Positions 11,525-42,190 of a stretch of DNA of 64,000 bases are shown here, one piece after another. Source of the DNA: Branchiostoma floridae (lineage: Eukaryota; Chordata; Leptocardii; Amphioxiformes; Branchiostomatidae); NCBI RefSeq assembly GCF_000003815.2, contig NC_049981.1, positions 20,826,505 to 20,890,504 on the forward strand. The letters are read 5' to 3'. Position 1 is the first letter of the stretch. The number at the start of each line of letters is the position of its first letter. The notes under the pieces are model-generated. The model made no database searches. It had not been told where the DNA came from and saw nothing but the letters and a program-made list of their open reading frames with translations. Made by a program: the position numbers and the translations under genes.

Positions 11525-13306
11525 TTAAAACCTCCTCAGCACAATGTTTATTGGCAGGGAAAAATTTGATGATTTTCGTTCGATTACACCTTTCAGCTTC
11601 TTCCATTCTTGGAAATCTGCGTCAAAGTCTTTGTTAGAGTTGTTGTTACTGCCGACGACCTTGGCATTGGAGAAATCTGCGATGAGAACCTTCAAGTGTG
11701 GCTCCTGGAACAGATGACATAAACAAACGATCATTGTCATATGGCCATAGGCTAGTTTGTACCACATATCCCGTAAACCACCTCATGGCGTAATACACCA
11801 GGTTTGTGCTGAAGAGAAGCTGCATATGCGGACTGATTTATCATTTGATTCACTCACACCGGGATGGATCCCTACTATTTTCAATAAGTGTGATAGGTTC
11901 TTTAACGTGCTTAAAACTGTTAAATGCCTTTCCTAAGGGCCCATTAACAATATCGGTGCCTGTCAGGGATTTGGACTGCAGTATCTCTAAGTTTTGAGTC
12001 AATTCATGCAACAGCCATGATCACAAAGCCAACGCACTACCTATTTATTCAAGCAAAGTTTAGGTTGGGGGTAGAACTGGTTCGGATTTCTTAAGGGAGG
12101 TAGCCGTAAGAATCCTGGCCACTATCATCTCCCCTTCTAAAGCTCTGATTGAGAATACATGACATCATCTTATGTCAAAACTCCGATGATATAAAACAAA
12201 TATTCATGAATCCAAGAATTGCCAACTGTGCTACCCTTTGGTAATGAAACGTAGCAGACAAACCTTTTCAACCAGGAGAGCATCTAGAGACATTTTCCCA
12301 AGAACGATGTCGTTTTGGTGAAGGAACTTCAAGGCTTTCGTCATGTCCAAGTTGGTCGTAAGCAAGTCTTCAGATGTTAGGTCGGTCAGCACCTCTCTCA
12401 GTTTGTAATGATGATGGAGCGTGTACAGGGCCCTGAGGAAGCGAAACACAAAATTTAATACTGTAATCACACCAACATTGTGTGTTTTACTTTTTATAAC
12501 ATACGACACTTGCAGTTACATGTGCAAGGTTAGGTGTGTCAGGTCGTTCAGTGTAACATAACCAGCTGCTGCCGCGTCGCGACGCTGTAACAGTTGTGCT
12601 ATTCCGAAGGGCGGTCGTACTGGAGATACAGAGACATGTAGGAAAATTCGTCAAGAATCGTATAGAAGAAAATGAAATGTACCATTTCATTGCGTCTTTG
12701 TCAGCAATGGCACACTGTCGGACAACATTCTGGTGTCCCCCAGCTTGTCCTATCCGCCTCAGTATCATCATTTCATTTGTGATAGCTGACTCTTGTTGTA
12801 TTTCATACTGGAAAGAAAGACAATAATGCGATACATGTCCATGCGATAGATGTACTTGCATTACTTTTTTCTGTCAGTTCACTCTATTGACGCCTAAGAT
12901 GTCACTCGAACCATCCGGAAATATATCTCGAATTCTAACGATATTGAAATGCCTGGGAATATTGTTAACCTGGATGTCTAACCTTCGTCAATGTTAGTAT
13001 AATACGTGTTGCATAGATAGCGTTGCTATCACATATTATGGCTCTATGAAATGTCTATGTAATAGTCATTGTAAAAAAAAAGTAGCAGACTGAAGTACAG
13101 TGGATGGTTGACTTCATGTACTTTGAATTCGTAGACCTTTGTACTAGACTGTTTTGATACTAATACGGTGTGTACAAAATCATGACGTACCCCTTTCCTG
13201 AACTGAAGAAGCACTTTAACCACGTGACTGGGTACTATGTCACCGGAAAGGCATTGCAGATATGACTGTATGAGAGTCCCTTCTGAATTCTCGTCTTTTT
13301 CAATTG
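11525..13306 (-). CDS. Gene A exons 21-24: truncated pseudokinase tail
   Basis: Exons 13191-13306, 12683-12807, 12264-12432 and 11525-11704 (residues 1406-1601, stop TAA at 11525). The order of kinase landmarks is kept: degenerate glycine loop SEGTLIQSYLQC, beta3 HVVKVL with lysine K1436, helix C NEMMILRRIG with glutamate E1456, HQNVV, hinge/helix D to E, FLHQNDIVLGKMSLD in the catalytic-loop position, and IADFSNAKVV at the DFG position. HRD reads LGK, the loop asparagine is alanine, DFG is DFS, and the protein ends about 47 residues after DFS, so most of the C-lobe is absent. Catalysis is therefore not expected; a scaffold or nucleotide-sensing role is inference. Phases match from the 7TM exon to the stop codon. 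Donors are GTACGT, GTACAT and GTTTGT. Confidence 0.8.
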
Positions 13307-16300
13307 CTGGAAATAAAATAGTACGTATTATACCAGATTTCAACCAGGTCATGTGGACTCTAAAAGTCGGCCAGAAAATATCTTGTCACAATAGTTAACG
13401 CGTAGTACCTTGCCATGGATTAAATGATTAGTGATATGCACCCCCATTGCTTTACTTTGAGATTGTACATGCATTTAACCAATGGGCATGATTTGTAAAA
13501 CACAATCTTTTATACTGGGCATACATGTAAAAGCTATTACAAGTACCGGTTATATTTGAAGCTTCGTGCAGACTCCTGCAAAGTTGTTCCACTGTTTCCA
13601 CTTCAACGTCGTCCTTGCACGCAACCTCTCTCTTCATGGGCCATCGTTGTGTTGCTGCAGCTACTTGAATCATCGGATTGAGTCCACACGTCACAGGCAC
13701 AACAAACAGAGCAATCCATGGCGTCAGTGTGACAAAGATATCATCCTGTACCGTGGAGAACATGCCAACAACAGCAACGATTATCCAGCAGATGAAGTCT
13801 GTCACGATGATTGTCTTGGTTGTTCTTTGTTTTTCATAGTGTTTTACTTTATTCTTGCCATCGTTCGTGCTGTTCAATCCCTCTACATAGCAGCTTAAAC
13901 TCCAACATGCTACAGATGCCAACGTCATGATGGTTGGAAGAGTGACGAACAGTACAAACCAATATTTCCACCTTCCTTGCTTCTGGATAATGTCTATAAA
14001 TGGTGAGCACGCAGCAGTCGTTTGCACGTCAAGCAATCCAAGATGAGGTATGTTCATCGTTACAACGGTGCACATAAAAGCGGACATCCAGCACGTAGCT
14101 ATCATAATAGCAATGTATCTGTTCTTAAATCTCCGAATGGTACTCGGGAGGCGAGATATGAGGTGGATCTGTACAACTATTGCTACTACTAGGAAGAGTG
14201 AGGCCATTTTGGAAAACGTCACTAATCCCGTTGCAATAGCACAGGCAGCATGGGAACGCCATCGTTGTTCGTTTAGAATATAACGATCTTGATAATAGGT
14301 GTTTGCAGAGGCTATGATGATCATGTATAATCCAGTCAAGGCATCTGCTATGGCAAGATTGCAAAGAAAGTGCTTTGACGGTCCGCTTGTTTTGCTCCTC
14401 ACTTGATATATTAAAATGGCCGGATTGCCAACTATTGACACTACTCCAAGGAACCACGTTGTTACTGTTAGGCTGTTGCTTCCGATAAGATGCTCACACG
14501 AGGAGACATAATCCTGCTGAGCAGAGCAGACGTTGGTCTGGGGTGCCATGCAGCACAGCTTGTATTGATTGGTGTTCCTGGAACACAGAAGGAGACAGCA
14601 AAGGCATGTGTAACCCAGGTGTCTCTTAGCACGCCAGTCTGGATTTTCCAATTATGAAAACAGACATAAAACTTAGTGAACCGGAAAATTGCTGATCCTG
14701 GGCACCCTGATGTGATACATCTTGACTAATGTAGATTTGAACGCAGTTTAGATTTTACTGCAAGAAATAGTGCATTGCAAAGTAGTCGGCAATATAAAGT
14801 GCATTGCAAAGGCTGCACCTTTTGTTTTGTGAAATTCAGTATGCTCAATATTGTAATGCGGAATACTCACAGCTTGTAAAGATCAGGAAGACCTTGAAAT
14901 GCATCCATTGAAACATCATTCACATTGTTACCTGTAAGATCACTGAAAGAAAATAAGGTCGCGTTAAGTACTAGTATAAGGCAATCATAAAGTGATTATC
15001 GTACAGTAGAGTGGTCCAAGGTAATTAAACACATTATGATTTCCGGCAATACAGTTTCAAACGTACACTTTACGCAATGGTGTCTGTACGAAAAGATGGA
15101 TAAAGCCTATAATTGATGTATGTTTATGGAAAAGTACAAGCTGGTATATAAAACTCACAGAACGTGCAAGCTGGCCAATCCTTTAAATGTCTCTGCCGTT
15201 AATCTGTGAATGAGGTTGCCACTGATGTTCCTGTTACGAGCAAAAATCACAGAACATCAATGCAGTGAATATTTGATAGCTTTGGCGACTTCGAAGGTGG
15301 AGGTCCGGAACTGTAGTACTGTAGCTAGTGGCATCACTGTAAATTTTGACAGCAGCTAGCAGCAATCAAAATGAATATCGGACGTTTACGTGGGAAAACT
15401 TGTGAATACAAGAGTGCAAAGTGTTGGACTGTCCAGTGCCATGATGACTACACTTCTGTACTCTGATGGGTGTGTTCGAAAGTGGTATATGTACTGCGTC
15501 TTTGACACTCTGTGTTCTTTGTTCTGAAATGTAAATTGTCGCAAGATACCCATGAATTCAGATGCTTTCTATGACCATGCTGTGGTGGTTCAGTTAGAGC
15601 TGATAGAAACAATTTGTCTTCATCGTGTCTGATTGTGCTATGTGGTGTTTGTGACACAGATACTCACGCTACTCACAGTTACTGTTACAGAATAGGGCCA
15701 GCATTCACTTAAAGTAAAATGTGGGGGCACATGCTCAAGATCGATCCGTTTCTTCAAGATGACGTGAAATTGGCCACAGGGGTGATGTACTTACAGGGCT
15801 TTTAGACGAAACATGCTGGAAAATGTACCAACGGGAATTTCCCTCAAGGAATTTTCACTGACATCCCTGTGCAAAAAAAAACAACGAAGCAACATTAAAG
15901 CACAGTATCCAATCGATATAACGGCTATTGTGCAAACTGCTAAGTTCATGACACATGACAAGCACACTCATCAGTGATTTAGACGTAACCCGAACCTGTT
16001 AGTGCTCCGAGGCAAGAAAAATCAATACACATTCTAATCTATCGTCTATACGTATGGTATTATCTGAAGAGCTTTCAAGCCATACACGGCAATGGCAATA
16101 CGTCACCACGGATAAGGGCGATACCGGGAAAGAACTGTGATGATGTTTGTCACATTTCCAGATGTATCTATTCCCTCATCTTTGTTTGAAAGGAGGCATG
16201 GCTGTCTCACTGACGTGTTAATGCTTCATCGATCGGCGATCGATTGCGTCTTTGGATGAGGAAAATACTCTCACTATGTATTGGATATGGGCCTATTTCA

Positions 16301-19300
16301 TTAGCAGATGGGTCGTACAGAAGGGAAATCCCTCCCGGTGGTATGTTATTTGATCGTTTTGATGATAGTACTCACAGGGTGGTTAACAGGCGCCATGTTC
16401 TCAGGGAGTCTTTTGTCAGGTTGAGCCTGTTGCGAGCAAGGTACCTTTGGGGTTGGAAGGAATTGGATGGTGTAAGTATAACATTTAATGAAGATTGGTT
16501 CCTTTCTATTATGGAAACGGTTCAAATTCTGTCCAACTCAAGAGCAGAGAAACATATAAAATTTAAAAGAAAACTCAAAACAGTGTGTCTGCAGATATTG
16601 TACTAAGGGCTTTACCAACTTACATACATGTAGCAATAAAAGATATGGCTATCATGATGCAATAGTAGCAAAGAAGTAATAGAAAGTTTAGCATAATAAT
16701 TATCGAAATACAACCAACATGAATGGGATACAACGACGTTTGCAGCGACCACTACATATCAAATGCGACAAGCTTATCCTTAGAACCCGCTATAAATATG
16801 TATCATACGATGTATGGATATTCATTAATATCTGATAAAGGTTACATTTGATTGAAATGTCATACCAAAATCCACATCGTTTGGGTGACTTTCAAGTTGC
16901 AACTGAAGATGACAGACTGCAAAATTTGATAAGGGTTTTGTTTGTAACCTAGTATGACGTGCACTTCCATGAGGAGACACTCGGAGCCGCCTAGTCTACT
17001 GCATGGGGTATGCTGCTTGTCACTTACAGTTCTCGGGTTGTTCTTGGGATCTTGGCTGGGATCTTGGCAAGGCCTTTGTTTATACAGCTAACGACTCCAT
17101 CTGAGCACTTGCAGGAGGAAGGGCAAGTGGATGCTGCAACATACAACAACAGCGTTTTTGACCCTACAAAAGACACAACAAGACTTCCGTAGGATCTAGT
17201 GCATCTGCACATATATAAATACAAACAAATAAACAAGTACATACAAATGAATTAACCAACGAACAGGTATAAGAATAACTCAGCATATCTGTCCTTTACA
17301 ATACTAGTTCTAAGGTCAATTTTTATGTATTTGCCTACGTGTACACAAGAAGAGTATCTCCAATCACTGAATTTATCTAAAGGATAGAAGATATTTTAAT
17401 CTTTTGAGCATGCAGAATACGACATACACGAGTATTGCACAATACTTCAGTTATTGGCAGGAAGCTCTTTCTTTAGAGTTGATGGTTTCGAGTTATTGAG
17501 TGCACATCTATTGATGAGATAGCTATGAGATATCTGTTGGGCTGCTTGCGGAACAGCCTTTGGGTTACTTTGATAGCCATATACTCTGTTTTAGGACAAG
17601 TGACATGGTGTTTTGCCTTGAAAAGGTACGTTGTCAATCCATATCCATATATACATGATACATAGTATATCTAACGTTACATCTTCCCTACACCTACCAT
17701 CAACTCGCATAGAGCATAACACCAGATTGGGTCTGCGAAATGCACAGTCAGTTCTTGGAACGATCCAACTATCCCCCTCGGTATCGTAACGCCGCTCGAC
17801 TACACCACATGTATCTGATCCATCATATTTGATATTCATATAGACACGCGGTCGGGGATAGACTGGCCACATATTTTGAAGGTAACCCTGAACGCGGAGA
17901 AAATCGATCGAAGAGTTGACGGTTGCAACGGATGAGCCTGCCTCACTGCACAACCGATCGGCCTGTCTAGATGGATTTGACGGACGGGAAGACAGCTCGT
18001 AGGGCCTAAGGCAGGCGAATCCTACCATGGTCCAGTCCTTGTTGCAACCTAACAAAGAATAAGAGCTTGTCAGTGATTAAAAGTCTCAGAAAGCAAACAG
18101 TTCCATAAATCTAAGAACTGACCTGATGACTGTGCACAAGGCACTTCGTTTGTTAACGTTGCACTTTCTGCATGATGCATTACTACCTTCGCCAGGAAGG
18201 TTAAGGTTTAGGTAGCGTGTGCGTTAGTGTGGGACCGCTATAACTCGAAATATGTCTGAATGGATTATCTTTATACTTATGTTATACCATGAATAGTATT
18301 GTTGACCTCGACAGTCGTTTCCAAGTCCTCATGTAAGACAAATATAACGCAGTGATTACATCCGTGTCTTTGTGAACTTCCTTTTTATCTTCATTCCCAT
18401 TCGTAAAACCTTAAAGACGCAATAAGGCTTTAGTTTCCAAACATAGCAAACCATTAGTAAAGCCTCTTAGGACTTACACCTAGCAGATGAACGATGCCTA
18501 GACGACCTTGATACAAACTTCAAACGTCCTTGCTTTATGAGTAAAGTTCAGCGTGCCCAACAGTGGGAGCCAAAAACTGAATTAATGCCGGGCCAGGGCA
18601 TTACATCGAACTAAAACCATTGGGTCGAACAAATAAATTATAGCAGATATTGAAAATAGCACACATACACTCAGTATAATCAACGAGTGTTTTTAAGCCT
18701 CCTCGGTATAATGTTAAAATCTATGTGCGCATCAACAATAAAATTGAAAATTAAAAACAAATGGGGCCACGGTGCTCAACATCATCGTTCTTCATCTCGC
18801 CAACACTAGCAGACGACATACAAATGCATCAAAGGGATCTCGAGTTATAGCTGCGAACACACAGACACAATCAACTGGAACACCCCCGTATAAGGTGAAC
18901 CGCCTTCACGTAGCTAACGACAGTCATTCGTTGCGTAATCACACTTCTTTATTCAACGGAAAATATATAGCATTGAACTATAGGACAGAGCTGAGTCTTT
19001 GAATACAAATGAAGTTGAGCTGGTGACTAGTCAAGTTACTTTGGACTGCTTTCAAAGGCAGGTTCTCAATATACTAGTATATGAGGGTCGAATGAAGAAG
19101 GCCTATCGGGAAATTCACAAGACACCTTTTAGACAGAAAATAACTCACATTGAGTGAAAAATCACCAGGCCGATGATGAATAAAGACGAGAAATTTAAAA
19201 CTCATATTGGTAAGGTCTTGAAGAAATTACCATCATCAACAAGGAGTTGACAATGATTTACTTAGCAAACTTTACACGAAAGCAAAGTTGTACTTTAAGA

Positions 19301-22300
19301 TAACATCAAGTACAGCAGTGACGAGATAGGAAACATGCCACAGTCCTAGATGGTAAGATAACTAGCATAGATCCTAGTATAAGGTTGAATTGTCTTTGGC
19401 ACGTGAATTTGAAAGTTCTAGACGTAATGATAATTGCAAACTACCTCTGGCCTTGGCCTTGCAGATATAGGTCCTAGTAGCCTCGGGATAGTTACAGGGC
19501 ACGGTGAACCACTTTGTCTCCGTTTGGCCAGTCAGCATCAGAGCGCAACTCTCCGTATTCTGTCCAGCTGGCAACGGGGTTGTCCCTCTCCAATATGTGA
19601 AACTAGAGCATTTAGAAATGTCAACATTAGACAACCTTGAATGGCTTCAGAATGTAAACTTTTTTCAATGACGAAGCAAACAGCATGACGTGACATCAAG
19701 GTAACATATGAGCTTACATGAATGACAATGTCATAGTTGCTGCAAAAGCCTGGATATTATTACACGAGAGCTTCAAGGATTTTGGTAACAGGTGCTATGC
19801 GCAAATGTTTTTACCAACTTAAGCAACTAGTTCCAAATACAATGTTTTCATGTAGATGCATATGGTGCCATTGCACTCGCAAAATTCTCCATGAATAGCA
19901 CTTTTTTTTGCCCAAATAGGGTACCGGACGTCCTGTGAGTTAAGTTCCATGCCAATAAGGTAATCATTGCTCCCTCTTGGCCCATGCCAACAATTTTACT
20001 GCGAAGTTATTCTCACACAATTACGTTGTCATACACGAAATGAGCGCCCTTTAATCCCAAGAATCGTAAATGGTTTTACAGGCAGAGAGTGCTAAAACTA
20101 TGACACTTGACAACGTGGCACTTACAGCACTTTACTGCCATCCACCCATGCATATTTCGCGTCATGACCGGTCGTCATGAGACCTATAAAAGCCGAGATG
20201 GTGCTATCCCTGTCTACAGCACCCGTCTCTCTCTCCAGAAGTTCTTTTACGTGTTCCATCTCTTCTGGGCTGGAAATACTGGCCAGATCCGAACCCGCCT
20301 CCGTGCATCTAAAGTAATGGGAATATCTATTTTCAATAAAGTTGACTTACTTAGGTACTTCTACTACGGGCACCAATGTACAATTCGTGGCAGATGGCAA
20401 CTGACAGAGAAGAATAACATACTTAAGCTTCAGATGAATTATAAAAACCGTTCGAACATATGTCATGTCACAAGATGTGGTCCCTTGTGACCCATCGGTT
20501 CAAAGGTCGCTACGTTACTGAGGCAATTCCAAATGAGACTGCTGCCACATTCTTTCAATCTTTTCAAGCATGACATAGTTTGAAATAGTTTCTATTTGAT
20601 ATTCAAATGATGGGTTTTGAATATAAAAATAAAGAAAATATTGTTAACAATGTGACGTTGCTCACCTTTGTTGGGCTGTTTCCCAAGATAACGTTTCCTC
20701 GTTGACGACCACACGGTAACAGTTGCTCCGGTAATATTGAAACCCACTTTCACACAGCTCCTCTGAAAAAACGGGAATCAAACCGAACATATTTAAAGCG
20801 TGCCTGATCCAGTTTAGCGGCTTAGCCGCAATAACGATGAATTCATCTTCCGTTTACAAGGTACATCATATGGTTTCATAGGCCATCTGTTACCGTTTTA
20901 CACTTACGTATTCGGACCTTTATGCTGTCATCAAATGCCTTTCTTAGTAGCTTAATTCAAGGGAGAAGATTTGATGCCTGGGAATATCCGTCCATAGCAT
21001 ATAATTGGTGGAATGGACAGTATTGGAAATAAAACGATGATGGTGGGTACTGTTGCTGTTGAGACAATAGGAAATATCTTTAGATCCTGAAGTAACAAAT
21101 TTGTGGAAATAGCAACCAGGTACTGCAAGCTACTGTGTGTGTTGCATACTGATTCTCACTTGGCTTCTTCTTAATGATCCTTAATACATCCGGCAATCCA
21201 GTCTTTTACAGATTCATTCCAACATTTTAATTACAGCTTACTTATATTTGTATTAAATTGGTTGACTTCGGCTTACCCATTTCAATTGGTTCTGTGTTTG
21301 GAGTTACAGCTTTGGTGGTTGTGTAAAAGGCAGTAAACGTCGGGTCCTTCTTTGTGCCTATTCTGTCCTTGACAAACTTTACCATCACCTGCGAACTTTT
21401 GAGCTCCACTGAGAACAATGGATAACTTTGCCGTATATCCAGAACTGTTCGAAATGTGCCATCGTCTTCCAGCTCTTGGATTAAGATGAAGTCCTCTCCT
21501 TTCTGGTCCGCCGTTAGACTGAGGTTTTGGAACGTTAGCACCGCCTTGTTTCCTGGTGGAGGTGATATGTGCCAGTCGCATACTAACGGCTGCCTGTCCA
21601 CGTCACTGCGGGGAGGTGGTTGAAAGAACCCGCATGGTGCCTGTAGGTCCTGTTGCTGCTTACAGCTTGTTGTTGGTATCTGTGTGCATTCTAAACAAAA
21701 CATGGGGAAACAACGCTGCATTGTTTTCAATATAGACAAATTGCTTTTTTAGAATTTCTGGCTAGACTTTGTGTCATTGGAAAAGGTACTGAGTTCATGG
21801 AGGGGGGGGGGTGGAAGGAGAGGGATGGGTTCCCCCTCTGCCCCCGCCTTAGACAGTGAATAACAAACAACGCACTGTCCTTACTTCTTTAAAAAAAGCT
21901 ATGGAACAGCCTTTTTACTTCGGTGGTACATTTATCAATTGATGTCTTACCCGTCGTCCTGAAATGGAAATAAAATCCGCTCCTAGACCAGGTGCAGAAG
22001 GACCTGTAGACCATCTCAATTGCGTGACTAGATGACGTAATCGTCTTCCAGTCCTCCTCTGCTTCCCGGCAATACGAGTAAATCAACACTGGCGAATTCC
22101 CTTGTAAGTCGTAAATCTACGAGATGCAAAAACGGATGTAACATGTAGCTGCAGACCATTCGTAAAACTAATTGCCGCTACTCAGACATTATGCCGTGCA
22201 TTCACAAGCAATTGCGACAATACTCCCTTATTTTGCACTTGTAATTTGAAAACTTTTATGTCTGAGAGCCATTGTGCCATACATTACGTAGAGACTCGAG

Positions 22301-25300: not shown

Positions 25301-28300
25301 TGGATTATCCAGCTTAAGCCAAACTTACCTTCGGAAACGTATGATGCGTAGAAACCTGCAGCAGCCATGGATGCGTCAGAAGTGAACTTGAGGTACAAGT
25401 GGTTTCGGCTGGAGAGGACTTTGAAAGAATCATACCTGCCGCAAAAAGTCCCTAGCTTGGGAGCTTTTTCATTGACACCATCGTGGATAGACAGTTGGTC
25501 ATACTCACAAGTTTCGCCTGCAGACATAAAATAACAATACTTCCGTTATATAATACATGTGATTGTTACCAACCTACTTGTCAACCAGCCAACCAACAAG
25601 CTAACCTACCAACAAGCAAACCACTAGATGTACCGTATATTCCAATGGTGTGCAATATTCGGTTTCGGTTTAAATCACGTATGCAATACACACAAAACAC
25701 AGTAATGTTTTTCTATTTCCCAGTGGGGGGGGGGCATGTTGCTTCTTTCAACGCACCCTAGGTGAAAACCTCAGACATAACACATCAACATCAAAGGTAC
25801 GAAAATAACAACCATCAACGCAACTTTCCAATTTAAAACAAGTAAAAATATATAAGATACAAAAAGGGAAATCAATGATGCAAAGTCAAGATAACTAGAA
25901 TAGAATGAGAATATAATGAAACTTGCCAAATACCAATGACAATGTCAAATACGACAACAAATGGATTCTAACACAATTTAACTTTATGCCTATTAAAGAA
26001 CAGCTTTTAGCACGCCCAGCAACACATATATTCTCTACGCAAGGGTTAATGCTCCCCTTGGTGATTAAGGTGTAAAAAGGTTAAGTTGTATATTGCCTGG
26101 AGAATATATTTCCTTTGCAGCAATATTGGATTAGTGGGTATAGTAGAGGGGTACAATGTGAAATATTAACTACTGGTTAGGCGCAGATTTCTGTAACGAA
26201 ATCCGCTGCTTTGCGAAATGTTGTGACACCAGAGAGTGCTTGTGGGCAACTGAACAAAACTCACAGCATGCTTGTGGGCAACTGAACAAAACTCACAGCA
26301 TGTCACGGGAAGTATGCTGCAGAACTAGTCCGTTCTAGAAGTTGCTGACTTTATCATTGACAGCTTTGTTGTGTTTACTACAACACATCACGCAGTTTTT
26401 CACCGTGCTGAAATAACCACCGTCTGCATGTGTACACCGATGTCGTAAAGAGTTCATTGTTTTTGCCGGCAATTTGTCAACAAATACGAGTAGTTCTTTG
26501 GTAATTGTTTTCATTCAGTCACTTTCATTTGCAATGGGTTTATCTAGGGTCACATGGCTGACATTGATGAATATAAAAAAATCCATGCTGTATACTTTAC
26601 TTCATGTTGATCTATTGGTACCACGCCTACTCAAATTATACCCCGGTCTACTTATTAGAATTGGGTAATGTAATATTTTGCAGCAGGTTTGACAAATATG
26701 TTAAAAGATTGCAAGGTGTAGTCTCAGAGTTGTAATTGGCAACCACAAGCTGACTGTTCACTTTGTGTCCGACTGGTATGAGTCCTGGCTACTGCATACA
26801 AAGCTGGTAATTTTGGGATATGCTTGTTCTCAACTGATATTTAATCATGAAAAATCTTGCACTGTATATTACTGATTTGACCACCTGCCAAAGTATGAAT
26901 TGACCACGCGATTGCAATTGGTGATATTCTACAACTTTAGCGGGTTTCTCAATGGACGTTGGCGGCGTCGCTGCGTTGTGTTACTCTTGACTTTATAATG
27001 GAAATATCTTGCAAAATGTACAAGTATGCCTAAAAAGACAACAGACACACAAAAATGTAAACCAATGAGTCTTTATCAATGGATTTTTTTTAGCACTTTG
27101 TCAAATCCATCGACCACAGCGCTAGCGACCCCTCTTCAGTGAGATAACCCCTTTACAGGGCCGAGGCATTTGTTGCAGGCACTCTAACCTACCTGTACAT
27201 GAAATCATCCTACGTGCAAGGAGTCTTACAAAAGCAGACAAATATCTAAGCAGACGTTTTTTGGGTACCTGATTCTTCCAGCTGAAAGCGGTCGAACACT
27301 AGCACGATGCGGTGTCTTGGCCTAACATGGATGTGCCATTCACACACTGTGTCGTTCTTATACGGCGCAAGTGGGAAACCAGCGGTTTGGATGTGACCAC
27401 AGTCGGACAGCAGATTTCTGAAGCTATCACAGCCTGAGTCTCCGAAACCCTCTTCCAGGCACAGCCCTTCGAAAGGAAAGTACACATGGTTGGAAACATT
27501 TTAAATGTTACTTTAAGTTAAAACCAGGATTTTCCTTATCAGGGTAATACTTCTGTTTGGATTACACACTGCAGCTAAGGTGTCGCTGCTATCAGGGCAG
27601 TCCGAAACTAACCTTATATCCCATATACATATAGCTACTAGCTGGCTATAGAAGACACTAAGACGCAAAGAATGGATCACTGTATGCTTGGTGACCATCT
27701 CGTCATGTGTTCATGTGTATGGACATCTATACAAACAATAACCGGGGAAGATCTAAGCGAACGCCAGATAAAAGGCAATCATCATCAACATGTAAATATC
27801 ATCTTAGTGGCAAAATGAGACGATGTTGACACACTGGGGCACCAAATCCGTAGGTGTCTTTGGCACCCTTTTTGACAGATTAGCCGTGAGGCTCGGTGGG
27901 CGTCACTCCACCGTCATGAGGGCAAGGGCATGGCGAGTATCGAACTCGGGACCACTTATTGCGATTCCAGCGCTCTAGCCGTTACGCCACACAGACACCC
28001 CTGATAAATGAATAAAATAGAGGTAAGTGAATAGATAGAAATAAATGATTAAAGAAATAGACAAACAAATGAGTCATCGTTATGTTTTTGTAATGATGTA
28101 TTTACTTAAATCCATTTACCATGGATAATTCAATGTTTTCTACAATATACTGAATTTTATGTCAACTCAGTTTTGGCCAAACCAGATATTGAAATCATTT
28201 GTCAAAGACTTGACAGATCCAGGGCACCGAATGTCAATATGTTCCACTGCCTTCATTGCTGCCATCAACATGAGTCAGGAACTATACCAACTACAATGTA

Positions 28301-34300: not shown

Positions 34301-37300
34301 CTCTGAGTTGCAGCAATATACACCATAGAGCAATAAAGTGGACCGAGAAAACTTTTGGTTTTGTATGATTGACCATGGCATATGATAATTCCATGTGTGA
34401 AACCGTGAAGCCCCGGCATTTGCTGCACTCTGGCACCCGCGATGAAGTTTTATGGAGAGTGGTGGACCTTCCATCCTCAACAGATCAGTATCGATTTATT
34501 CATGAGGCGGTTAACGTCCACACTCCTGGAATATTCGACGCGGGTGAAGGACCGTATGTTTCATCACGTCTCTTTTCTCTGTTTTAAAACTCCTGTTCCA
34601 GGCCTGGTGACGTCAAAATGGAGATGGCGGTTTTCTAGGATTGTGTCTGGACATTAAAGTCTGGACACTCCGCGATTGCCAGATTGAACTCCCACTGGTC
34701 AGTTTGATTCAAGAGTCTCTAAATGTGTGACAATCAGACCCATGATTACAAAACCAGAAAATCACATTTACTACACAACCCTAACTACGCCTCAACAGAA
34801 AGTCGATGTACATCTGCATATATAGAGCAGCAATATGCAGCTTAGCTAAAACAAGCGCACATCCTTCAAACAGACTCTAAACTCAGGGCCAATTGGACCT
34901 CTGACCCTTCCAAAACCGTAAAATGACCATGTCTGATGATTTGTCTGTTGAGTTGCTATTGTTTGGGTTATTTTAAGTTGTTAGTATGATCGATGACTCA
35001 TTTTGGATATATTATTTGTTGTTTAATATAGTTAAAGTGATGTTCGCTTGTATTCTGATTACCTCCAAGATACCGTAATGACCTAACGTTACATGTAAAA
35101 TAGTGCTAAGAATGATAAGGGAAGAAAGGAACGACAGATTTTCATGATATCTAGTGTGCAGGTTTCTTAGGCAAAAATTTGCATAATAAAGTGCAAATCG
35201 GGACTTAACCTACATATTTCATGAGGAAAATCTATATTCACAGCGTTTTCCATCAAAGGACTCAAATTTATGTAACAAATGTAGATTGTGGCAGGTAGAA
35301 GATAACAGGTGCCAATTATGCTCTTCTATTATGTCTAAGTAAGTTCTTAATTTGCATAATTAATTAAGAAGTAATTCTAAATAGTTACCGTAAGGGGTGG
35401 TATAACCCCGTCGTGTGTAAACATGTGCGAACATGTGTGATCACGTCGACCGATGATGATGATGATGATTGGACTGTCAACATTGAAAGCGTAGATTATA
35501 CCAATGCGAAAGTTATTTGCATAATCAGAATATTTCATTGGGAGATATTAGGTCTCCGAACATTTGCATAATTTGTGATGAATATAAACATGGTATTATT
35601 GCAAACTGAATTAGATTCACCAAACTGTATGTTTGGTAAGAAAAGACCACCATTTGCCAATTGCAGTCTTATTTGAATCATCGACGACACAACATCAATC
35701 AATAGACCTACGAGGGCTAAAACAAGTGTCACTGATGTATAAGGTCTCTTGAATCTTGTTCGTTATGATTTTGTATGCTTTGGAAATCACTCGCTCTGTT
35801 CACTGAAGGGGTTACCCCTAAGATTCATAAATGAATAGAATAGATAAATACATGTTGAGCAAAAATTCCAAGCATTGTCATTGTCAGACCTGGTTAGCAG
35901 GTAACTTATCTATCATATGCAGTGGCGTTTTCGTCATCTGGAATTCAATTTGGCTGTACTCATCCGTTGTACCCTGCCATAAGCACGGGTGAAAGGTTGC
36001 CTCTCAATAATCCCCGCCAGCACGTGAAGACCGCGGGGTGACAGGGGACGTGTCAACGGCTCACTTTGTAGGATTAGGGCATTACAAGAAGTAGATTTTT
36101 CTACCATTTCCTCACAATTGCATCCGATTTTGAAATGAAAAGATGGGAGTGTTTCCAAATAAGAAGGTCTTGATGATCGTCTTCATATCTAGCCAGTCAG
36201 GAGTTTGCCTAACTGTTTACCCAACCACACGTAGCTAGTGTATATGTTTACAAATAGTTATTGTATAGTTCATTCACATTAAGGTTTTGCTCTCGACAAC
36301 ATTTTCAATCTTGGGAGCCAAATCTCACATAGTGTAAAAAGTAGTGTTAATATTGCAGGATCCCCTTGTCATTTGGATGTACTTTGGAAGGAAAATGTAG
36401 ACCCGTGGCTTCTTTGGTTACCAACGTTCACAAACTTCCAATACCCTCACATGCCATTTTGGACAGGGTTATGCGAGGGCTGCCTGTGATTGAGCTGTCA
36501 GCATTCAACCTTGTCTTGATCTTGTCCTCTCTTCAACCATCTTAGAATTGTCCTCCCCTCATTACCATACATCAACCGGTTAGTCTCTGACGAAAGACAG
36601 AAACGTCTGGCAGTTTTCAAATTCTATCCAGTTGCTTGTGAAGGTGTTACCTTGTGTATCTTATCACCTGGATGTCTAACCTTTATCAACGTATGGGGGA
36701 TGTTTTTGTAGTGCTTATGATCTTCTGCCGTGTAATCATCTTAGCCGCAAAGCGTACTTACGTTTCGTGTAAGTAAGACAAAACAAGATGCACTTCTTCC
36801 GCTTTGACAAGTTAAGCCCCCGAGGTGGCTGATGGATTTCAAAGAATTTGGCACGTTAAGACCCTGCATAGCAATGACATTTTTAAACAAATGAAAATGG
36901 TTATCATTCAAAACTGAAGTAAATCAAATTAAAATAGAATAAACTGGAACTGAACGTATAATTAAACTAAACTAAACCATAAACGTAACTTAACTAAACT
37001 AAACTGCAATGCGGATATTTAATCTTTGTCACACAGCAGCGAATCATTTGAATAATTACCAATTAGTTAGTACCATAGCAACACATTATATCAATAGCAC
37101 TAACATTCTGGTACATTTGTGCTTTGACTAGATTTCTTACTGTCATCAAAATAAAGGAGTAGGTAAGGTATTGTTGCCGGCGGGTGTAATGAGAGCATCA
37201 TTTCTCATTTCTGTGTGAATAGAATATCTCAAGCAGACACATTCCAGAACAGTTCCCGTAAGACTTAGCACTACAGCTGCCGCGTGTGCCGCTCGTCTGC

Positions 37301-40300
37301 CATATTTTATCACATGTAAATGTCTGTCTCTGCTATCCGTACAGAACATTATCTTGAGGAAAACAGATGACGTGTCAGACACTAATGCTTTGTACATTAA
37401 AGTCTTAGGATCAAGTAGGCAGTGTTTCGGAGAATCTGAACGGTGTAAGGCAATATGGACTTGCATTGATACATTGTTTCGCGTGGGTTAAAATGGGGAT
37501 TTGCGAATGATGAATTGTTTAGATACTAGATAGGCTAGAGGTATTTGCAGACGAACATGCAGCGTGGGAATGCAACCGGAGATAAAGTTTCATTTATAGA
37601 CGCCAGAAGAAATAGTGAAATTCATTGGATATTTCAAAATTGGTGATCATTAATGTTGCAGCATGATGAAAAGGTGTATTTTTACCTTTTTACAAGTTGT
37701 ATTTTACCTTCGGTAATAATCAAAGAAATAAAAACTATTAAATTGACCAACTTGTGGGTATTCTACCTTCATACACCGTTAATACAACATTTTATTCTTC
37801 CTATTTCCGTTTGCAACTGTAATTTCACATCGGTGAACCTGGGTGTCAGAAGCATGTACACCAGAGCATATCGAATCTGTGCTGGTGGATCGGAATGGAA
37901 GATTAGCGCACATGAGAACCCCTAAAACGCAGAAGTGATAAACAGCAAATTACTTTTTGCTACATTGAGCACGACTTCCATCATACAGATCTATTGACCG
38001 AGGGAAGACTTTAAACCAGATATTGAACTCACACTGAGAGGATATAGTTGTACTTTCGATTCTCCTTTAATTGCCAAGAGCAACTTATTATAAGCAATAA
38101 TAATGATCTTTATTAATTTGCACACTCATGCCCAAAGGCCAATTGCTAGGGAACACGCAAATGTGATAACACAAAAAACATAGTCCGGCGACCTCATACC
38201 TCCATGAAATATTTATTCCTATCATTGTCACTAATCTGTTTTGCCATTTTTGTATATATTATGCAAACTAGTTCCTAATTATGCAAATAAATTACACATT
38301 TGCATAACTTGTATATCATTATGAATATCTTTGCCTAAGCTACATGCAAGCCTAAAATGATGGAAATCGGTCATTCTTTTCTCCAGTTATCTTCTTTGTA
38401 ATACCCTGACAAAAACACGCCTGCAGTTCCAAAATTAAACGTTAGGGGGCTCAAATCTTGCTCTGACGTCGAAGGTCTGGGACAAGAGATACATTGAAAA
38501 AACTGCTATGATAAAATATTCTCATTATTTATGTAAATTTATACAGTTTGCATAATTGGTATTTCATTTTGTACAATTTGGTCTAACCTACCTACAAACC
38601 TAAATTCATGAAAATACGTTATTCCTTTCTCGAGTTATCCTCTTCGGATCTTTCTATAAAGATGCCCCTGCAATTTCACCCCTAATGATAACTACTAGAG
38701 GGCCCAAAATGTCTTTACTTCTTTCAGAGCACAAGAACTATCTAACGCCCAAACATCGTGTCCATGGCTTGTGCAGAACATGACATATCAAGACATGAAC
38801 TTCCGCTGCAGTACCAAGGAAAGCCGCTGAGGGGCCCAACATATAATCATTTCTAGCTTTTGTCCTGCCCCACCAACACATCAAGTATGAAAACAATCCA
38901 TCCAGCCGTTCTTGAGGTATCTTGGTTACAGATAGACACATACACACAGACGCTACATGAAAGTATAACCTTCATGAATATTTCATGGTAGTAAGAAAGA
39001 GTAAATGTCTATTCTATACTCTATAATGCATACTCTATGTGATATACCTACATACATTACTGAGGGGTTTCATTTCTTCCTTGGAGGCGATGACTATCAA
39101 TGTAGTTCCACGTTATATTACTTCCAGCAACTAGCCATTAGACAAAATCTTCACATGCATATGCTTGAGGGGTATGTGCTACGATAATGGTCCACCCAGG
39201 CTCTAGTGTCGGTACTAAGGGCAGTATTTAGTATGCATCAGGACAACGTCTACGGCGCACTTGACGTACTTTGAAAATAATAGGAGGCACTTTTTCTTCC
39301 GAAATAGATTCAATCCGGACAAGCGAGTACGCCATGGGTGCTAGTCAAGCTGATTTCGATTCTGTTAGTTCGAAGGTTGGTTAGTAAACAATATAAAGTA
39401 TAAAGGTTAGACGTCCAGTTGAACAATTTAATTTCTACAACGCTACTAGAATGCACTGCCATATCAAACCAATAATAGTTCATCTACCTGGCAAAATTGT
39501 TGAGCATGTCAAAGTCACTAACGTATGCAAATGTCACTTATGTGAAAACCATGTTGGGATGGTTGTAAGATGTACTAGTATTGATTTGTTCTGCCAGTCA
39601 TTTTAGTGACCCTAAAGAGCTAAGAATGTAACTCGAAACGTCCTGAAGTAAATCTCATAATTTTATCTAGTTGAAAGAGAGAGAAATGGTTTATTATTAT
39701 TGCCATTGACATTGAAAACATTTGAGGCACATTTACAAATGGCTAAATTGCCGTTTTTTTCAGACTCAGTATTACAACCTCTAACTCAAGTTAACACTTT
39801 TAAAATGATCGAGTCACAACATAACATCTACTGTTTACAAAAACTGGCCAGTTACTACACAAAGAAAGATTTGCTATTATTCACAAATTACCCGTCTTGG
39901 TTCAGGAGCTTTACATAGTACGGTAATGTGCTATTAGCAAAACGAGAAGTTCTACACCGGAAGTGAGAGAGTTTGTCTTTGTTTCTTAGAGACCTATCAT
40001 GGGTATCCCCTCGTCTAGATGGAAGCCAATAACTGAATCTTTCAGAGTTGAAGAGATTGAATTGTTTTTAAATAGACAATAACGTTATACATGTAACTCA
40101 CGTATGGATACACGTTTAAAAGTGATGTGCCTTCCTAACAGAGGGTATTCGGTGTTCATCTTGACTGGTGGTACACGATGTCGGACCACATAACAGATTA
40201 TCAAGCTTTAACCCCCATTTAGGCTTTCACTTCGCTTCTCAGTGCTTCTTATCAACGGATACCGATAGGCGACGGATTGGTTGCACAACGACTGGCCTCG

Positions 40301-42190
40301 GGGCATTATTCCGATTCCACGTAGATACGTGCAATTTAAGCATAGTTCCTGCTTCAGTTTCCGGAGATATATCCATCAGATAAGAATTTAATATCAGTAA
40401 TACCCCCACTCCACTGGGGCGGCGACCTCGTTACGACCGTGCTGCAACCGAGAGATTTGACATTTTTGTAGAACGAATTTCATAGATAAAAGAATTGAAT
40501 CGTTTTGTTGCTTTTTCGGTCAGTATCTTAAATTTTACCTAATGATTACAATCATGAAGTCAAGTGTTAGACAAGTGCAATTTAGGTCACAGCGAAGTCG
40601 TGGCGCGATCGCCGTCTAGAACAGTGAATGAGGGGCTAAGAAAATCTATCAGTTTCATTCCTGGTAAACGAGTACACACTTGCAATAGAGAGATAAGATT
40701 ATGTTACTATTTTGTGAGTGTTTTAACGTTCGGGTTTATGAAAATCGCACTCTCTGCGCTGTAATTCATGTTTTAGTGAAACTGTTTATTGTTAAGCAAA
40801 ATAACTAGTCGATATGTTGGCCCTAAAAATGTGTCGATATTTTAACCAAAATAACTACTGGATATTTTGACCATTTTATCGCGTAATCAAAATAAACGAT
40901 ACACGATTAATAAAAATGTATTTCTGTGCGTTCTGACGCTCATAAAATGCCAAATAAATGCGATAAACGCTTGGTTGATATCTAAGACCTATGCCAGAAA
41001 CTGTCTTTGTGCCACGTTAATTTTGCACACAACCAAACTGCATTGCAAGGGTCTAATAAATTTTCCTTTCATGTCGTCTTGGCAAACGCATGAGAAGCAA
41101 TGGACCAAACATGAAATATGAGCCGTCAAATATGAAAAATTTCAGCCAATCAAAAATATATCTGTCATTACAGCTACCCACGTGAGGAGAAAAAGAAATC
41201 GAATATGGTATTAGTGCGTCTTTCTTTTACGACAACATTTTGCATACGGCGACATATGAGTGATATACACACGCCTTGGTGCAATCGTTATCATTACCTA
41301 GGCAGAAAGGTTGTACTGATGGGCAATTACATCGCTAAAGTTCAAATTCTCACGCACGAATGCAACACGGTTTCGCCTGACGTGTGAGTGACAGTTGCGA
41401 ACGCTCCGAGATGCAGGGGCAGTATTGTTAGCGCTGAAGAAACGACAGAACGTGACCTTCTCTGCGCCGGATGGTCGGGAGATATTATGCCGGTGGAAGA
41501 AATAATTAGAAAGAAATAGATTCCAACGCACTTGAGAAATAGATCAATCCTGAAATCGTAATTATCTGGTCCGGACGAGCAGTAATAGATACCCATAAAT
41601 ATCACATGTCCAATTCCTCACTAGAAGCCATTCATTTGTGGTTAACTCCACACCGACGTATTGACAATGGTCAGAGAATGGCAGGGTCTGGGGGAAGACG
41701 ATTCGTGATTAGTATGCCGAATGAGGTGCCATTGATTACGTATCTTAGATATTTCACAAATGACTAGATACATTGGGTTTTCCTAAGTCTTTTACGTATC
41801 TCCCGCGTATTGTGGCATGTGAAGAAATACTGATTTTCAACAAAAATACACAGCACTTGGGAAACTTTGCAATATACTGAATTTCCATTGTTACACATGA
41901 TAACTTATGAGAAGACTATATAATGCAAGACAATATTAAACTTCTTCGGTACCATACCTCATACTAATTTGGTGCAAGGTGTGCTCGAACTATTAAAAAT
42001 AAGGATTGCAAAATGACACAAGTTTCTATCACATGTTTCATAAAAATCATACGTTTCGACGGCGTATAATATATATAATAATGCAAAACGTATGTTTTGT
42101 CAATGATCAAAACCAAATTGCTTGCATACCTGAAACGAGTGGTTCGGCAGTGAAAAGGAAGAAGAGGAGGGATATGGTGAGCTGTCCCAT
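11525..42190 (-). CDS. Gene A: CUB-CTLD-LRR seven-TM receptor with pseudokinase tail (24 coding exons)
   Basis: A multi-exon gene predicted to encode a 1601-residue plasma-membrane receptor. Coding exons in transcript order: 42130-42190, 27269-27466, 25329-25517, 24960-25150, 24464-24620, 24029-24124, 23450-23749, 22578-22810, 21951-22116, 21277-21690, 20666-20762, 20126-20308, 19445-19602, 17698-18048, 17028-17133, 16376-16444, 15795-15866, 15159-15230, 14871-14942, 13547-14577, 13191-13306, 12683-12807, 12264-12432, 11525-11704. Every junction uses GT-AG and the phases agree throughout; total coding length is 4806 nt, an exact multiple of three. Domain order: signal peptide 1-20, five CUB or CUB-like domains 43-655, two C-type lectin-like domains 669-931, LRRNT plus four LRRs 932-1062, LGR-type 7TM about 1100-1370, kinase-like tail 1406-1601. 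The 7TM is closest in pattern to relaxin-receptor/GRL101-type LGRs. The ligand is unknown. The chain from exon 2 to exon 24 is well supported; exon 1 is less so. Whether all modules are in one mature mRNA is inferred. Confidence 0.82.
12965..12992 (+). repeat. Terminal fragment of the same interspersed repeat
   Basis: CCTGGATGTCTAACCTTCGT matches the 3' block of copies 2 and 3; it lies in an intron of the pseudokinase part of gene A. Confidence 0.4.
13547..14577 (-). CDS. Gene A exon 20: hinge and seven-TM domain, LGR/GRL101 type
   Basis: A 1031-nt exon (residues 1062-1405). It opens with the LGR hinge: YKLCCMAPQTNVCSAQQD then SSCEHL. TM1 has SIVGNP (1109-1114), TM2 NLAIAD (1135-1140), the TM3 cysteine is C1174 and its ECL2 partner C1252, TM6 has TDFICW (1321-1326, matching the TDxxCWxP of LGRs) and TM7 has GLNPMIQ (1360-1366). 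Three activation motifs are altered: the DRY/ERW position reads QIH (1198-1200), the TM6 proline after CW is isoleucine, and NPxxY is NPMIQ. The short cytoplasmic helix-8 region (about 1371-1405) is acidic and runs into the kinase-like exons at a GGTACT donor in phase 1. Family assignment is by motif pattern only. Confidence 0.9.
14871..16444 (-). CDS. Gene A exons 16-19: four leucine-rich repeats, one per exon
   Basis: Four exons, each exactly one LRR, in transcript order 16376-16444 (69 nt), 15795-15866, 15159-15230 and 14871-14942 (72 nt each). They read YLARNRLNLTKDSL..., DVSENSLREIPVGTF..., NISGNLIHRLTAETF... and DLTGNNVNDVSMDAF..., each ending in an aliphatic block such as LPDLYKL. All boundaries are phase 2 within the same leucine codon, as in vertebrate glycoprotein-hormone and relaxin receptor genes. 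Residues about 967-1062. Four repeats is short for an LGR ectodomain (usually about 9-17). I looked for further 72-nt phase-2 exons between them and found none with good splice sites. Confidence 0.9.
17028..17133 (-). CDS. Gene A exon 15: LRR N-terminal cap
   Basis: Encodes a classic cysteine-rich LRRNT: STCPSSCKCSDGVVSC followed by INKGLAKIPAKIP (residues 932-967). The Cx3CxCx6C spacing is visible. It caps the hydrophobic edge of the leucine-rich repeat solenoid. The exon enters in phase 1 and leaves in phase 2 at the leucine codon of the first LRR, so it converts the phase-1 modular part of the gene into the phase-2 LRR part. Confidence 0.9.
17698..18048 (-). CDS. Gene A exon 14: divergent C-type lectin-like domain 2
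   Basis: A single 351-nt phase 1-1 exon (residues 815-931). Starts GCNKDWTMVGFACLRP, then CSEAGSSVATVNSS (matching the helix-2/strand motif 'C...gs.LA.i.s'), and ends DSWIVPRTDCAF with LVLCSMR. The WIGL core is replaced by a VYMNI strand and no EPN or WND motif is present, so it is a structural CTLD without the canonical ligand site. Intact exon structure against the three-exon CTLD1 suggests independent acquisition or loss of introns rather than a recent tandem duplication. Acceptor TTTGTTAG at 18049, donor GTAGGT at 17697. Confidence 0.78.
19445..20762 (-). CDS. Gene A exons 11-13: C-type lectin-like domain 1
   Basis: Three exons (20666-20762, 20126-20308, 19445-19602) encode residues 669-814 and form a complete long-form CTLD: CESGFQYYRSNCYRV, then SWETAQQRC, GSDLASISSPEE, an AFIGL strand, AWVDGSKV, ESCALML and a final TRTYICKAK. 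The six-cysteine pattern and the conserved W are visible. The calcium/sugar signature is not: the EPN/QPD position reads PLP and the WND position reads WFT, so calcium-dependent sugar binding is unlikely by the usual rule. Both internal junctions are phase 2, the outer ones phase 1. It sits between CUB5 and the second CTLD. Confidence 0.88.
21277..21690 (-). CDS. Gene A exon 10: CUB domain 5
   Basis: One 414-nt phase 1-1 exon, residues 531-668. A cysteine-containing lead-in (CTQIPTTSCKQ) is followed by a CUB starting APCGFF, with LVCDWHISPPPGN and KAVLTFQNL, then EDFILIQE and a C-terminal TFTAFYTT. The first cysteine pair is clear. The exon ends in a short linker leading directly into the first lectin domain. 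The whole domain sits in one exon, unlike CUB1, 2 and 4. Confidence 0.82.
21951..22810 (-). CDS. Gene A exons 8-9: CUB-like domain 4
   Basis: Exons 22578-22810 and 21951-22116 encode residues 398-530. After a linker starting CRDLSHHL, the CUB begins at APCGIF (about residue 417), continues with a YDYRIRIEM strand and the EGIRFMCKG segment, and ends GFYFHFRTTG. The exons join in phase 0 inside the domain, in the same place as in CUB-like domain 2, which supports a common origin by duplication. Splice sites are TTCAG / GTAGAA and TCGTAG / GTAAGA. Confidence 0.75.
23450..23749 (-). CDS. Gene A exon 7: CUB-like domain 3
   Basis: A single 300-nt exon (phase 1-1, exactly 100 codons) covering residues 298-397. 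It begins with HVHCKIAV, then ARVDLYDG (matching the core 'v.vyDG' strand of CUB domains), and ends LTSGNELLIILWKD followed by WTPKIQYS, which resembles the last two CUB strands. Only one of the canonical cysteines is evident, so it is a divergent CUB-like module. Acceptor and donor are ATCGCAG and GTACAT. Confidence 0.7.
24029..24124 (-). CDS. Gene A exon 6: short linker exon
   Basis: A 96-nt symmetrical (phase 1-1) exon encoding residues 266-297, with one cysteine in the phrase ELPLCFPDP and an asparagine/proline-rich remainder. No known domain. It joins CUB-like domains 2 and 3 and keeps the frame on both sides, using acceptor TTTCAG and donor GTAAGT. Being symmetrical, it could be skipped without breaking the frame, which makes it a candidate for alternative splicing (inference). 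Confidence 0.65.
24464..25150 (-). CDS. Gene A exons 4-5: CUB-like domain 2
   Basis: Exons 24960-25150 and 24464-24620 encode residues 150-265. The fold is recognisable by its hydrophobic strand spacing: a FPCPGSLNITG start, ERMWITWDPW in the second strand, and a C-terminal block LLSLHLWNRDGGVF typical of the last CUB strands. It is more divergent than CUB1 and lacks a clear C-G pair in the middle. The donor of exon 4 (GTTGGT at 24959) is weaker than the others, but it gives the phase-0 join needed by the next exon, which starts IYEGNN. Residues 150-168 form a linker from CUB1. Confidence 0.72.
25329..27466 (-). CDS. Gene A exons 2-3: CUB domain 1
   Basis: Exons 27269-27466 and 25329-25517 encode residues 21-149. 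CUB1 starts at the DCGH cysteine (about residue 43) and carries the usual pattern: C..I.(T)AGFPL near the start, VCEWHI, a hydrophobic strand, then CEYDQLSIHDG, the TFCGRY segment, and a C-terminal GFYASYV. All four canonical CUB cysteines are present, so this is the most typical CUB in the gene. CUB domains are extracellular beta-sandwich modules that bind proteins or glycans. A short cysteine-containing N-terminal segment (residues 22-42) precedes it. The intron between the two exons is phase 1 and about 1.75 kb; it contains a 32-bp tandem duplication near 26237. Confidence 0.88.
26237..26302. repeat. 32-bp tandem duplication in a gene A intron
   Basis: Two perfect copies of a 32-bp unit starting TGCTTGTGGGCAACTGAACA lie head to tail in the intron between CUB1 exons. 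Confidence 0.85.
27830..28003 (-). mobile_element. tRNA-derived SINE
   Basis: On the minus strand, an A-box-like stretch TGGCGTAACGGCTAGAG (27989-27973) is followed about 26 nt later by a B box GAGTTCGATACTC (27947-27935), the internal RNA polymerase III promoter of a tRNA. The arms do not form a complete cloverleaf and the sequence runs on for another 100 nt of unrelated body, so it is a SINE, not a tRNA gene. It sits in intron 1 of gene A in the same orientation. Confidence 0.65.
31995..32110 (+). repeat. Interspersed repeat, copy 2
   Basis: TGACGAAAGATAGTGGAT, TATCCAGTTGCTAAAG, TTGGCGCATCTTATTACC and GTCTAACCTTCATCGACG in order; the most complete copy in the window. Confidence 0.65.
32735..32759. 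repeat. (AG)n microsatellite
   Basis: Twelve AG units in intron 1 of gene A. Confidence 0.9.
36581..36692 (+). repeat. Interspersed repeat, copy 3
   Basis: TGACGAAAGACAG, GAAACGTCTGGCAG, CTATCCAGTTGCTTG and CCTGGATGTCTAACC with the same spacing as copies 1 and 2. Confidence 0.65.
38170..38960. repeat. Diverged repeat related to the 52.4-53.5 kb array
   Basis: Shares with the larger array the ATTATGCAAATAA / ATTTGCATAA pairs, the phrases 'CTGCAGTTCCAAAA' and 'CTAGAGGGCCCAAAA', and an end of the type TTCTTGAGGTATCTTGGTTACAGA followed by ACACAC. About two degenerate units are visible. It lies in intron 1 of gene A. Confidence 0.55.
42130..42190 (-). CDS. Gene A exon 1: start codon and signal peptide
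   Basis: Encodes about 20 residues starting MGQLTISLLFFLF, a hydrophobic stretch of the kind that directs a nascent receptor to the secretory pathway. The ATG (42190-42188) is followed by G at +4. The exon ends in phase 1 at a good donor (GTATGC) at 42129, so its last G completes a glycine codon with the first two bases of exon 2. This exact phase match and the otherwise missing signal peptide are the reasons for joining it to gene A. It would make intron 1 about 14.7 kb, far longer than the other introns. An acceptor (TGTTTCAG) ends one base before the ATG, suggesting a 5' UTR intron. The alternative is that this exon belongs to another unseen gene and the true first exon of gene A was missed. 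Confidence 0.55.

Follow-up and report, generated by a model that had tools for sequence, protein, structure and literature searches.

The window analyzed here is a stretch of 64,000 nucleotides from Branchiostoma floridae (C3:20826505-20890504), and the genome searched comprised 513 Mb in 431 contigs. On the minus strand of the window lies a receptor gene which, rebuilt from the sequence, consists of 24 exons running from 42190 to 11525 and encodes 1601 amino acids in 4806 nt with a single terminal stop. The three minus-strand frames were inspected and splice sites scored; two boundaries were then set by homology to paralogues. Before the paralogue comparison, the draft chain of 24 exons measured 4905 nt and yielded a translation of 1634 amino acids. 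Two paralogous loci, denoted P1 and P2, place the end of exon 21 at 13191 and the start of exon 15 at 17133. All junctions are of the AG/GT type, and splice phases match throughout the chain. An earlier note on this DNA had given 24 exons, 4806 nt and 1601 residues with matching phases, which our rebuild reproduced exactly, including the step from exon 20 (end at 13547) to exon 21 (start at 13306). Elsewhere in the window, on the minus strand, two open frames at 57121-58831 represent another class-A receptor, neuropeptide-type by eye, whose 57121-57849 piece matches 7tm_1 with 103 bits; a 237-codon frame at 54450-55160 (minus strand) resembles, by eye, the C-terminal part of a non-LTR retrotransposon reverse transcriptase.

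The earlier note had divided the ectodomain into five CUB domains, two C-type-lectin-like domains (CTLDs), an LRRNT and four LRRs. A candidate exon 1 (42130-42190) would provide the ATG and a signal peptide (MGQLTISLLFFLFTAEPLVS); it is one of two signal-peptide-like first exons of the right phase (phase 1) found within 36.5 kb upstream under the thresholds used. Pfam searches of the 1634-residue draft returned CUB with 110.8 bits over two stretches, Lectin_C with 57.5 bits, LRRNT with 26.4 bits and LRR_8 with 58.4 bits. CUB1 is split between exon 2 (27269-27466), whose P1 homologue is 75% identical, and exon 3 (25329-25517); exons 2 and 3 of P1 together score 90.7 bits for Pfam CUB and exon 3 of P2 alone 48.2 bits. 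CUB5 occupies exon 10 (21277-21690), with Pfam CUB scores of 23.7 bits in the window and 28.9 bits in the P2 homologue and an hhalign value of 95% to CUB1. CTLD1, which accounts for the Lectin_C match, is encoded by exons 11 (20762-20666), 12 (20308-20126) and 13 (19602-19445). On these profile matches the predicted CUB1, CUB5 and CTLD1 are firm; two CUBs and one CTLD thus exceed the Pfam cut-off in the window, and the five and two given earlier are, on present evidence, too many. Exons 8 (22810-22578) and 9 (22116-21951) probably form CUB4: Pfam gives no match in the window, the P2 homologue scores 17.6 bits for CUB, below the cut-off, and hhalign to CUB1 gave 30% over 114 columns. Similarly, exon 14 (17698-18048) is a probable second CTLD, with 62% identity in P1 and 38% in P2, a sub-threshold Pfam match to the C-type-lectin-like UL45 model (13.8 bits) and an hhalign value of 28% to CTLD1; a single-sequence AlphaFold prediction of the exon alone reached a pLDDT of 51, too low to be of use. 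Exons 4 (25150-24960) and 5 (24620-24464), the former CUB2, have homologous exons in P1; Pfam matched them in neither the window nor P1, and hhalign to CUB1 gave 4.7%. Exons 6 (24124-24029) and 7 (23749-23450), the former CUB3, have no Pfam or hhalign profile support, and the assignment of exons 4-7 to CUB2 and CUB3 is unproven. The LRRNT in exon 15 (17028-17133, its start set by P1 and P2) and the four LRRs in exons 16-19 (16444-16376, 15866-15795, 15230-15159 and 14942-14871) hold as proposed on the scores above; each LRR fills one exon of 69-72 nt, and the exon sizes are identical in P1.

Exon 20 (13547-14577) encodes an LGR-type Cys hinge and seven helices (7TM); the earlier note had already predicted an LGR-type 7TM. 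It scores up to 49.3 bits for Pfam 7tm_1, its hinge CC..SSCE aligns with those of other lancelet LGRs, and seven hydrophobic peaks are seen in the window gene, P1 and P2. The remaining four exons, interpreted by paralogue alignment, encode a kinase-like tail of 196 residues. Exon 21 (13191-13306) comprises a linker and the start of a kinase-like N-lobe with a candidate beta-3 lysine in VVKVLL, exon 22 (12683-12807) the segment from alpha-C (Glu in NEMM) to beta-4, exon 23 (12264-12432) the hinge, alpha-D/E and a degenerate catalytic loop in which LGKMSLDALL replaces HRD..N, and exon 24 (11525-11704) a DFG-like ADFS, an alpha-F-like segment and the stop codon. Exon 22 measures 125 nt in the window, P1 and P2 and 128 nt in a third paralogue, P3; exon 23 measures 169 nt at all four loci. 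Two alternatives within the tail were rejected. An exon 21 end at 13122, with VYEFK providing the beta-3 lysine, disagrees with P1 and P2, which splice at the equivalent of 13191. At 12619-12520, a further in-frame exon ('QLLQRRDAAAAG...') and the beta-5-like stretch beside it have repeat matches genome-wide, misfitting phases and no counterpart in the paralogue models. Both fall in a repeat-like stretch of intron 22 (12519-12660) that is not an exon: it is dispersed, with many translated genome matches, is skipped by the paralogue models and by eye mimics a kinase beta-5/hinge region.

With the 7TM exon as query, a genome-wide search returned at least seven matches at E ≤1e-5 (the match counts of our genome searches are lower bounds, the best candidates alone having been scored). 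Four belong to genes with the tail, namely the window gene, P1 (C3:20966483, plus strand), P2 (C14:11274312, minus strand) and P3 (C3:26543185, plus strand); the remaining three lie on C4, C18 and C1. An initial tail search yielded at least 143 matches, 16 of them in the four loci, and nearly all of the other 127 overlapped the repeat-like stretch in intron 22. With the P2 tail as query, at least 12 matches were obtained at E ≤1, all 12 within the four tail-bearing loci; the P3 tail gave at least 10, seven in these loci and three at E 0.04-0.93. None of the tail searches of the genome detected a tail beside the C4, C18 or C1 receptors, nor was one recognized by eye among the downstream open frames of at least 45 codons in the region neighbouring the C4 receptor. 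The C-terminus of this tail-less LGR (C4:28028139-28029113, minus strand) is a long Gly/Lys/Pro-rich repeat (GGKK...), and a comparable low-complexity tail is found in the C18 relative. The window gene (C3:20838029-20868694, minus strand) and P1 (C3:20955101-20970032, plus strand) are arranged head to head as an inverted duplicate pair, with about 86 kb between exon 1 of the former and exon 2 of the latter.

Exon-by-exon tblastn revealed the window exons in unchanged order and orientation in both P1 and P2, with matches to the CUB, CTLD, LRRNT, LRR, 7TM and kinase-like exons. Of the 24 exons, 19 were modelled in P1, 16 in P2 and four in P3 (exons 20, 22, 23 and 24); exon 21 of P3 was not found. 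The P1 model lacks exons 8, 9 and 12, which abut gaps in the assembly, as well as exons 1 and 6. The P2 model lacks exons 1, 2, 5, 6, 17 and 19, and a single unbroken stretch there corresponds to exons 11 and 12 together. P3 shares the 3' half of the window gene and combines LDLa repeats, CTLD-like pieces, LRRs, a 7TM and the kinase-like tail. Its ectodomain contains four LDLa repeats above the Pfam cut-off (40.5-49.9 bits), two Lectin_C pieces (17.7 and 16.1 bits) and an LRRNT (18.0 bits), all three below cut-off, and LRR exons recognized by eye; its second CTLD-like piece has no Pfam match. A pattern scan of the gene's strand found four LDLa repeats in P3 and none in the window, P1 or P2. 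The modelling had imposed the window's splice phases, and the paralogue exons were therefore modelled again near the same places with phases left free: the entry phase equalled that of the window in 39 of 39 cases and the exit phase in 36 of 36. A colinear structure is present, wholly or partly, at four loci, and a chance chain of exons is excluded because the paralogues are colinear.

Against a 7tm_1 cut-off of 30.5 bits, the seven-helix core of the window gene scores 46.7-49.3, P2 48.3 and P3 67.9 bits; the P1 core (C3:20966479-20967533) has no Pfam 7tm_1 match at a maximum E-value of 10 despite 52% identity to that of the window, a sign of its extensive drift. Several class-A switch residues are gone, a loss on which the earlier note is silent (residue numbers are Ballesteros-Weinstein labels placed on the alignment). 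In the window, P1, P2 and P3, respectively, the R3.50 position is occupied by I, M, N and R, the P6.50 position by I, S, V and L, and the Y7.53 position by Q, Q, H and Y, which amounts to loss in three, four and three of the four tail-bearing genes. Accordingly, the window gene reads QIH, CWII and NPMIQ in place of DRY, CWxP and NPxxY. P3 retains R3.50 and Y7.53 in DRV and NPFLY. Among the tail-less receptors, those on C4 and C1 keep all three residues, and that on C18 keeps P6.50 and Y7.53 without R3.50. Switch loss therefore tracks the tail imperfectly, since P3 keeps R3.50 and the NPxxY motif and the tail-less C18 receptor has lost R3.50. In an unrooted tree of the seven 7TM sequences, the window gene, P1 and P2 stand apart from the rest with support of 100, and a support of 81 sets the three tail-less receptors off from the four genes that have a tail.

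Each of the four tails has a kinase-profile match at E ≤10 (best 1e-11). For PK_Tyr_Ser-Thr (cut-off 23.1 bits), the window tail scores 30.0 bits (23.2 in the draft translation), P2 26.0 and P3 30.6; the P1 tail, with 21.2 bits, stays below both kinase cut-offs. For Pkinase (cut-off 31.7 bits), P3 passes with 45.2 and the window tail falls short with 27.0 bits, and the tails of P1 and P2 align from profile position 17 onward. A search of PDB chains with a profile of the tail alignment gave 659 distinct sequences at E ≤1 (best 3.9e-5), many of them kinases, the best 60 of which indicate no single kinase family; the P3 tail alone gave 32 sequences at E ≤0.01, likewise of no one family. The candidate beta-3 lysine is kept in all three genes in which exon 21 was found (VVKVLL, VTKVLL and VVKLIL). 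From the Pfam start positions and the kinase consensus, it may correspond to the VAIK lysine; one HMMER alignment puts the lysine of a true kinase two residues past it. The alpha-C glutamate and the DFG aspartate are conserved in all four tails. HRD is replaced by LGK, LGR, LGK and LNG in the window, P1, P2 and P3, the aspartate becoming K, R, K and G; the position of the catalytic asparagine holds A, S, G and N, so that asparagine is present in P3 alone; and DFG becomes DFS, DFS, DFT and DFS, with the glycine lost throughout. All four tails end shortly past the alpha-F-like segment, in which alignment positions D167 and W171 are invariant, and none has a C-lobe beyond it (APE to alpha-I); the window protein stops about 50 residues past DFS. 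Because the HRD aspartate, the DFG glycine and, outside P3, the catalytic asparagine are lost and the C-lobe is cut off, catalysis is very unlikely, and the tail is best described as a putative half-length, degenerate pseudokinase. What had been noted as a kinase-like tail is thus upheld as a kinase-fold match and not as a kinase.

Between the window gene and P1, dN/dS is 0.16 for the ectodomain, 0.15 for the 7TM and 0.13 for the tail, at dS values of 2.05-2.39 that are close to saturation. The tails are 60, 53, 42 and 35% identical in four comparisons, in which the 7TMs are 52, 37, 29 and 28% identical; over the modelled exons, the tail exceeds the 7TM in four of four comparisons and the ectodomain in all three that were measured. 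With the lowest dN/dS and the highest identity in every comparison, the tail is the most tightly selected part of the gene.

We consider it somewhat probable that these genes encode a surface receptor derived from GRL101-like LGRs, in which an attached pseudokinase has taken over the output from G proteins, with one gene encoding the whole and the dead tail acting as a scaffold or switch. The shift in output is suggested by the loss of the class-A switches in the branch comprising the window gene, P1 and P2. In such a receptor, which we infer to be read from a single transcript, the ectodomain of CUB, C-type lectin and LRR modules would recognize a ligand, probably glycan-bearing or microbial, and the LGR-type core would relay a conformational change inward. 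The kinase-fold tail, unable to phosphorylate, would then dock or allosterically control a cytosolic partner, either a live kinase or an adaptor, and signaling would proceed independently of G proteins. As to origin, GRL101-like LGRs may have gained the tail; CUBs may later have been added, and the class-A G-protein switches lost, in the branch of the window gene, P1 and P2. P3 has the appearance of an intermediate, given its GRL101-like ectodomain, its intact DRV and NPFLY and a tail that resembles a kinase more than the other three do. More tentatively, and as a possibility that we would not yet call probable, the family may represent a bilaterian class of pattern-recognition receptors without G-protein output, in which a switch-stripped core drives a dead half-kinase and which evolved stepwise in the lancelet lineage from GRL101-like LGRs via P3. 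If four lancelet genes do share a conserved kinase fold that is dead, 7TM-kinase fusions would also have arisen in chordates, and on an LGR-type 7TM. The tail-less LGRs, then P3, then P2, P1 and the window gene would form a graded natural series in which the handover of 7TM output from G proteins to a pseudokinase can be tested.

The same single gene might instead have kept G-protein signaling, with the pseudokinase tail serving only regulation such as arrestin or GRK docking or trafficking. The 7TM core is intact, its seven hydrophobic peaks being present in the window gene and in both P1 and P2, and the retained motifs of P3 fit such a role; moreover, some class-A receptors signal despite atypical motifs, and motif loss, as read from these sequences, does not prove lost G-protein coupling or lost nucleotide binding. 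Set against this are the loss of R3.50, P6.50 and Y7.53 together in the window gene, P1 and P2 and a tail better conserved than the 7TM in every comparison, and we regard retained G-protein signaling as unlikely, with some weight still attached to it.

We think it improbable that the locus consists of two adjoining genes, one for an LRR 7TM receptor and another that is kinase-like, co-duplicated as a block. Lancelet gene models are described as containing many false domain-architecture differences, among them convergent false fusions, and a truncated globular domain is given as one warning sign of gene-prediction error (PMC4967905). An unspliced exon 20 runs into its own stop, AATAAA occurs twice in intron 20 of P1 and once in that of P2, and one in-frame ATG (13352) precedes exon 21 in the window. 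However, intron 20, which measures 481 nt in P1 and 1581 nt in P2, leaves merely 240 nt between the two parts in the window and there contains neither AATAAA nor ATTAAA; an AATAAA follows 311 nt past the final stop. Neither P1 nor P2 has an in-frame ATG upstream of exon 21, candidate first exons within the window intron have poor donors (top score 0.8), the phase-1 junction fits in the window, P1 and P2, and P3 has kept the order despite its deep divergence. A single gene spanning the 7TM and kinase-like exons therefore appears much more likely, and the gene proposed earlier, with CUB, CTLD, LRR, LGR-type 7TM and kinase-like C-terminus, is the most likely arrangement, recurring wholly or partly at three more loci.

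An active 7TM-kinase of the GPCR-TKL/K or GPCR-TK type, as in choanoflagellates, oomycetes and sponges, would share the order of 7TM and kinase fold, but is very improbable given the replaced HRD aspartate, an asparagine kept in P3 alone, the missing DFG glycine and the absent C-lobe of all four tails. A decaying pseudogene family, which could account for motif loss in 7TM and kinase alike, is barely credible: 1601 codons are free of internal stops, dN/dS is 0.13-0.16, and those exons that were modelled have retained their splice sites.

Among the closest known systems are the type C LGRs represented by Lymnaea GRL101, with which the window gene has the LRR ectodomain, the LGR-type Cys hinge and the 7TM in common. 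The GRL101-like genes of the Biomphalaria SudRes2 region combine CTLD, LDLa, LRR and 7TM (PMC12297450, PMC4079206), and the term 'kinase domain' is absent from the accessible text of PMC12297450. P3 resembles them in its LDLa, CTLD-like, LRR and 7TM parts, and a CTLD in front is also found in the window gene. The latter differs from GRL101 in its CUBs, the absence of LDLa in the pattern scan, the lost class-A switches and the kinase-like tail; since it lacks the LDLa repeats that are the hallmark of GRL101, we regard it as GRL101-related and do not class it as GRL101. Lancelets have at least 664 GPCRs; among these are adhesion GPCRs that carry a C-type lectin or CUB domain (Nordstrom 2008, PMC2246102), which are alike in their lectin/CUB ectodomain and differ in belonging to the adhesion family; the word 'kinase' is absent from the accessible text of that study.

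The combination of CUB, CTLD and LRR modules with a 7TM and a pseudokinase appears to be unreported for bilaterians in the open PMC literature searched, and no bilaterian 7TM-kinase fusion was found among titles and abstract openings of the open-licence part of that literature. In the GPCR-TKL/K and GPCR-TK proteins of choanoflagellates, oomycetes, amoebozoa and sponges, too, a single chain has a kinase-fold domain after its 7TM; their domains are described as kinases, whereas the window gene has a truncated pseudokinase (PMC12716839, PMC6033456). According to the accessible text of PMC12716839, the taxon list of which includes Branchiostoma floridae, acanthoecids have GPCR-TKL/K, choanoflagellates and sponges have GPCR-TK, and further metazoan lineages have neither. 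The 7TM and kinase domains used as queries there came from choanoflagellates, so that the survey may have overlooked a degenerate half-kinase. Our gene model has the 7TM-kinase order of the GPCR-TKL/K proteins and lacks the catalytic residues. Unlike these fusions, the window gene combines an LGR-type rhodopsin 7TM with a CUB/CTLD/LRR ectodomain in a bilaterian host. A pseudokinase fold serves as a scaffold or allosteric switch in ErbB3, ROR, RYK and the kinase-homology domain of receptor guanylyl cyclases. There, a full-length fold follows a single membrane pass, whereas the predicted lancelet receptors cross the membrane seven times and carry a fold cut off past the alpha-F-like segment.
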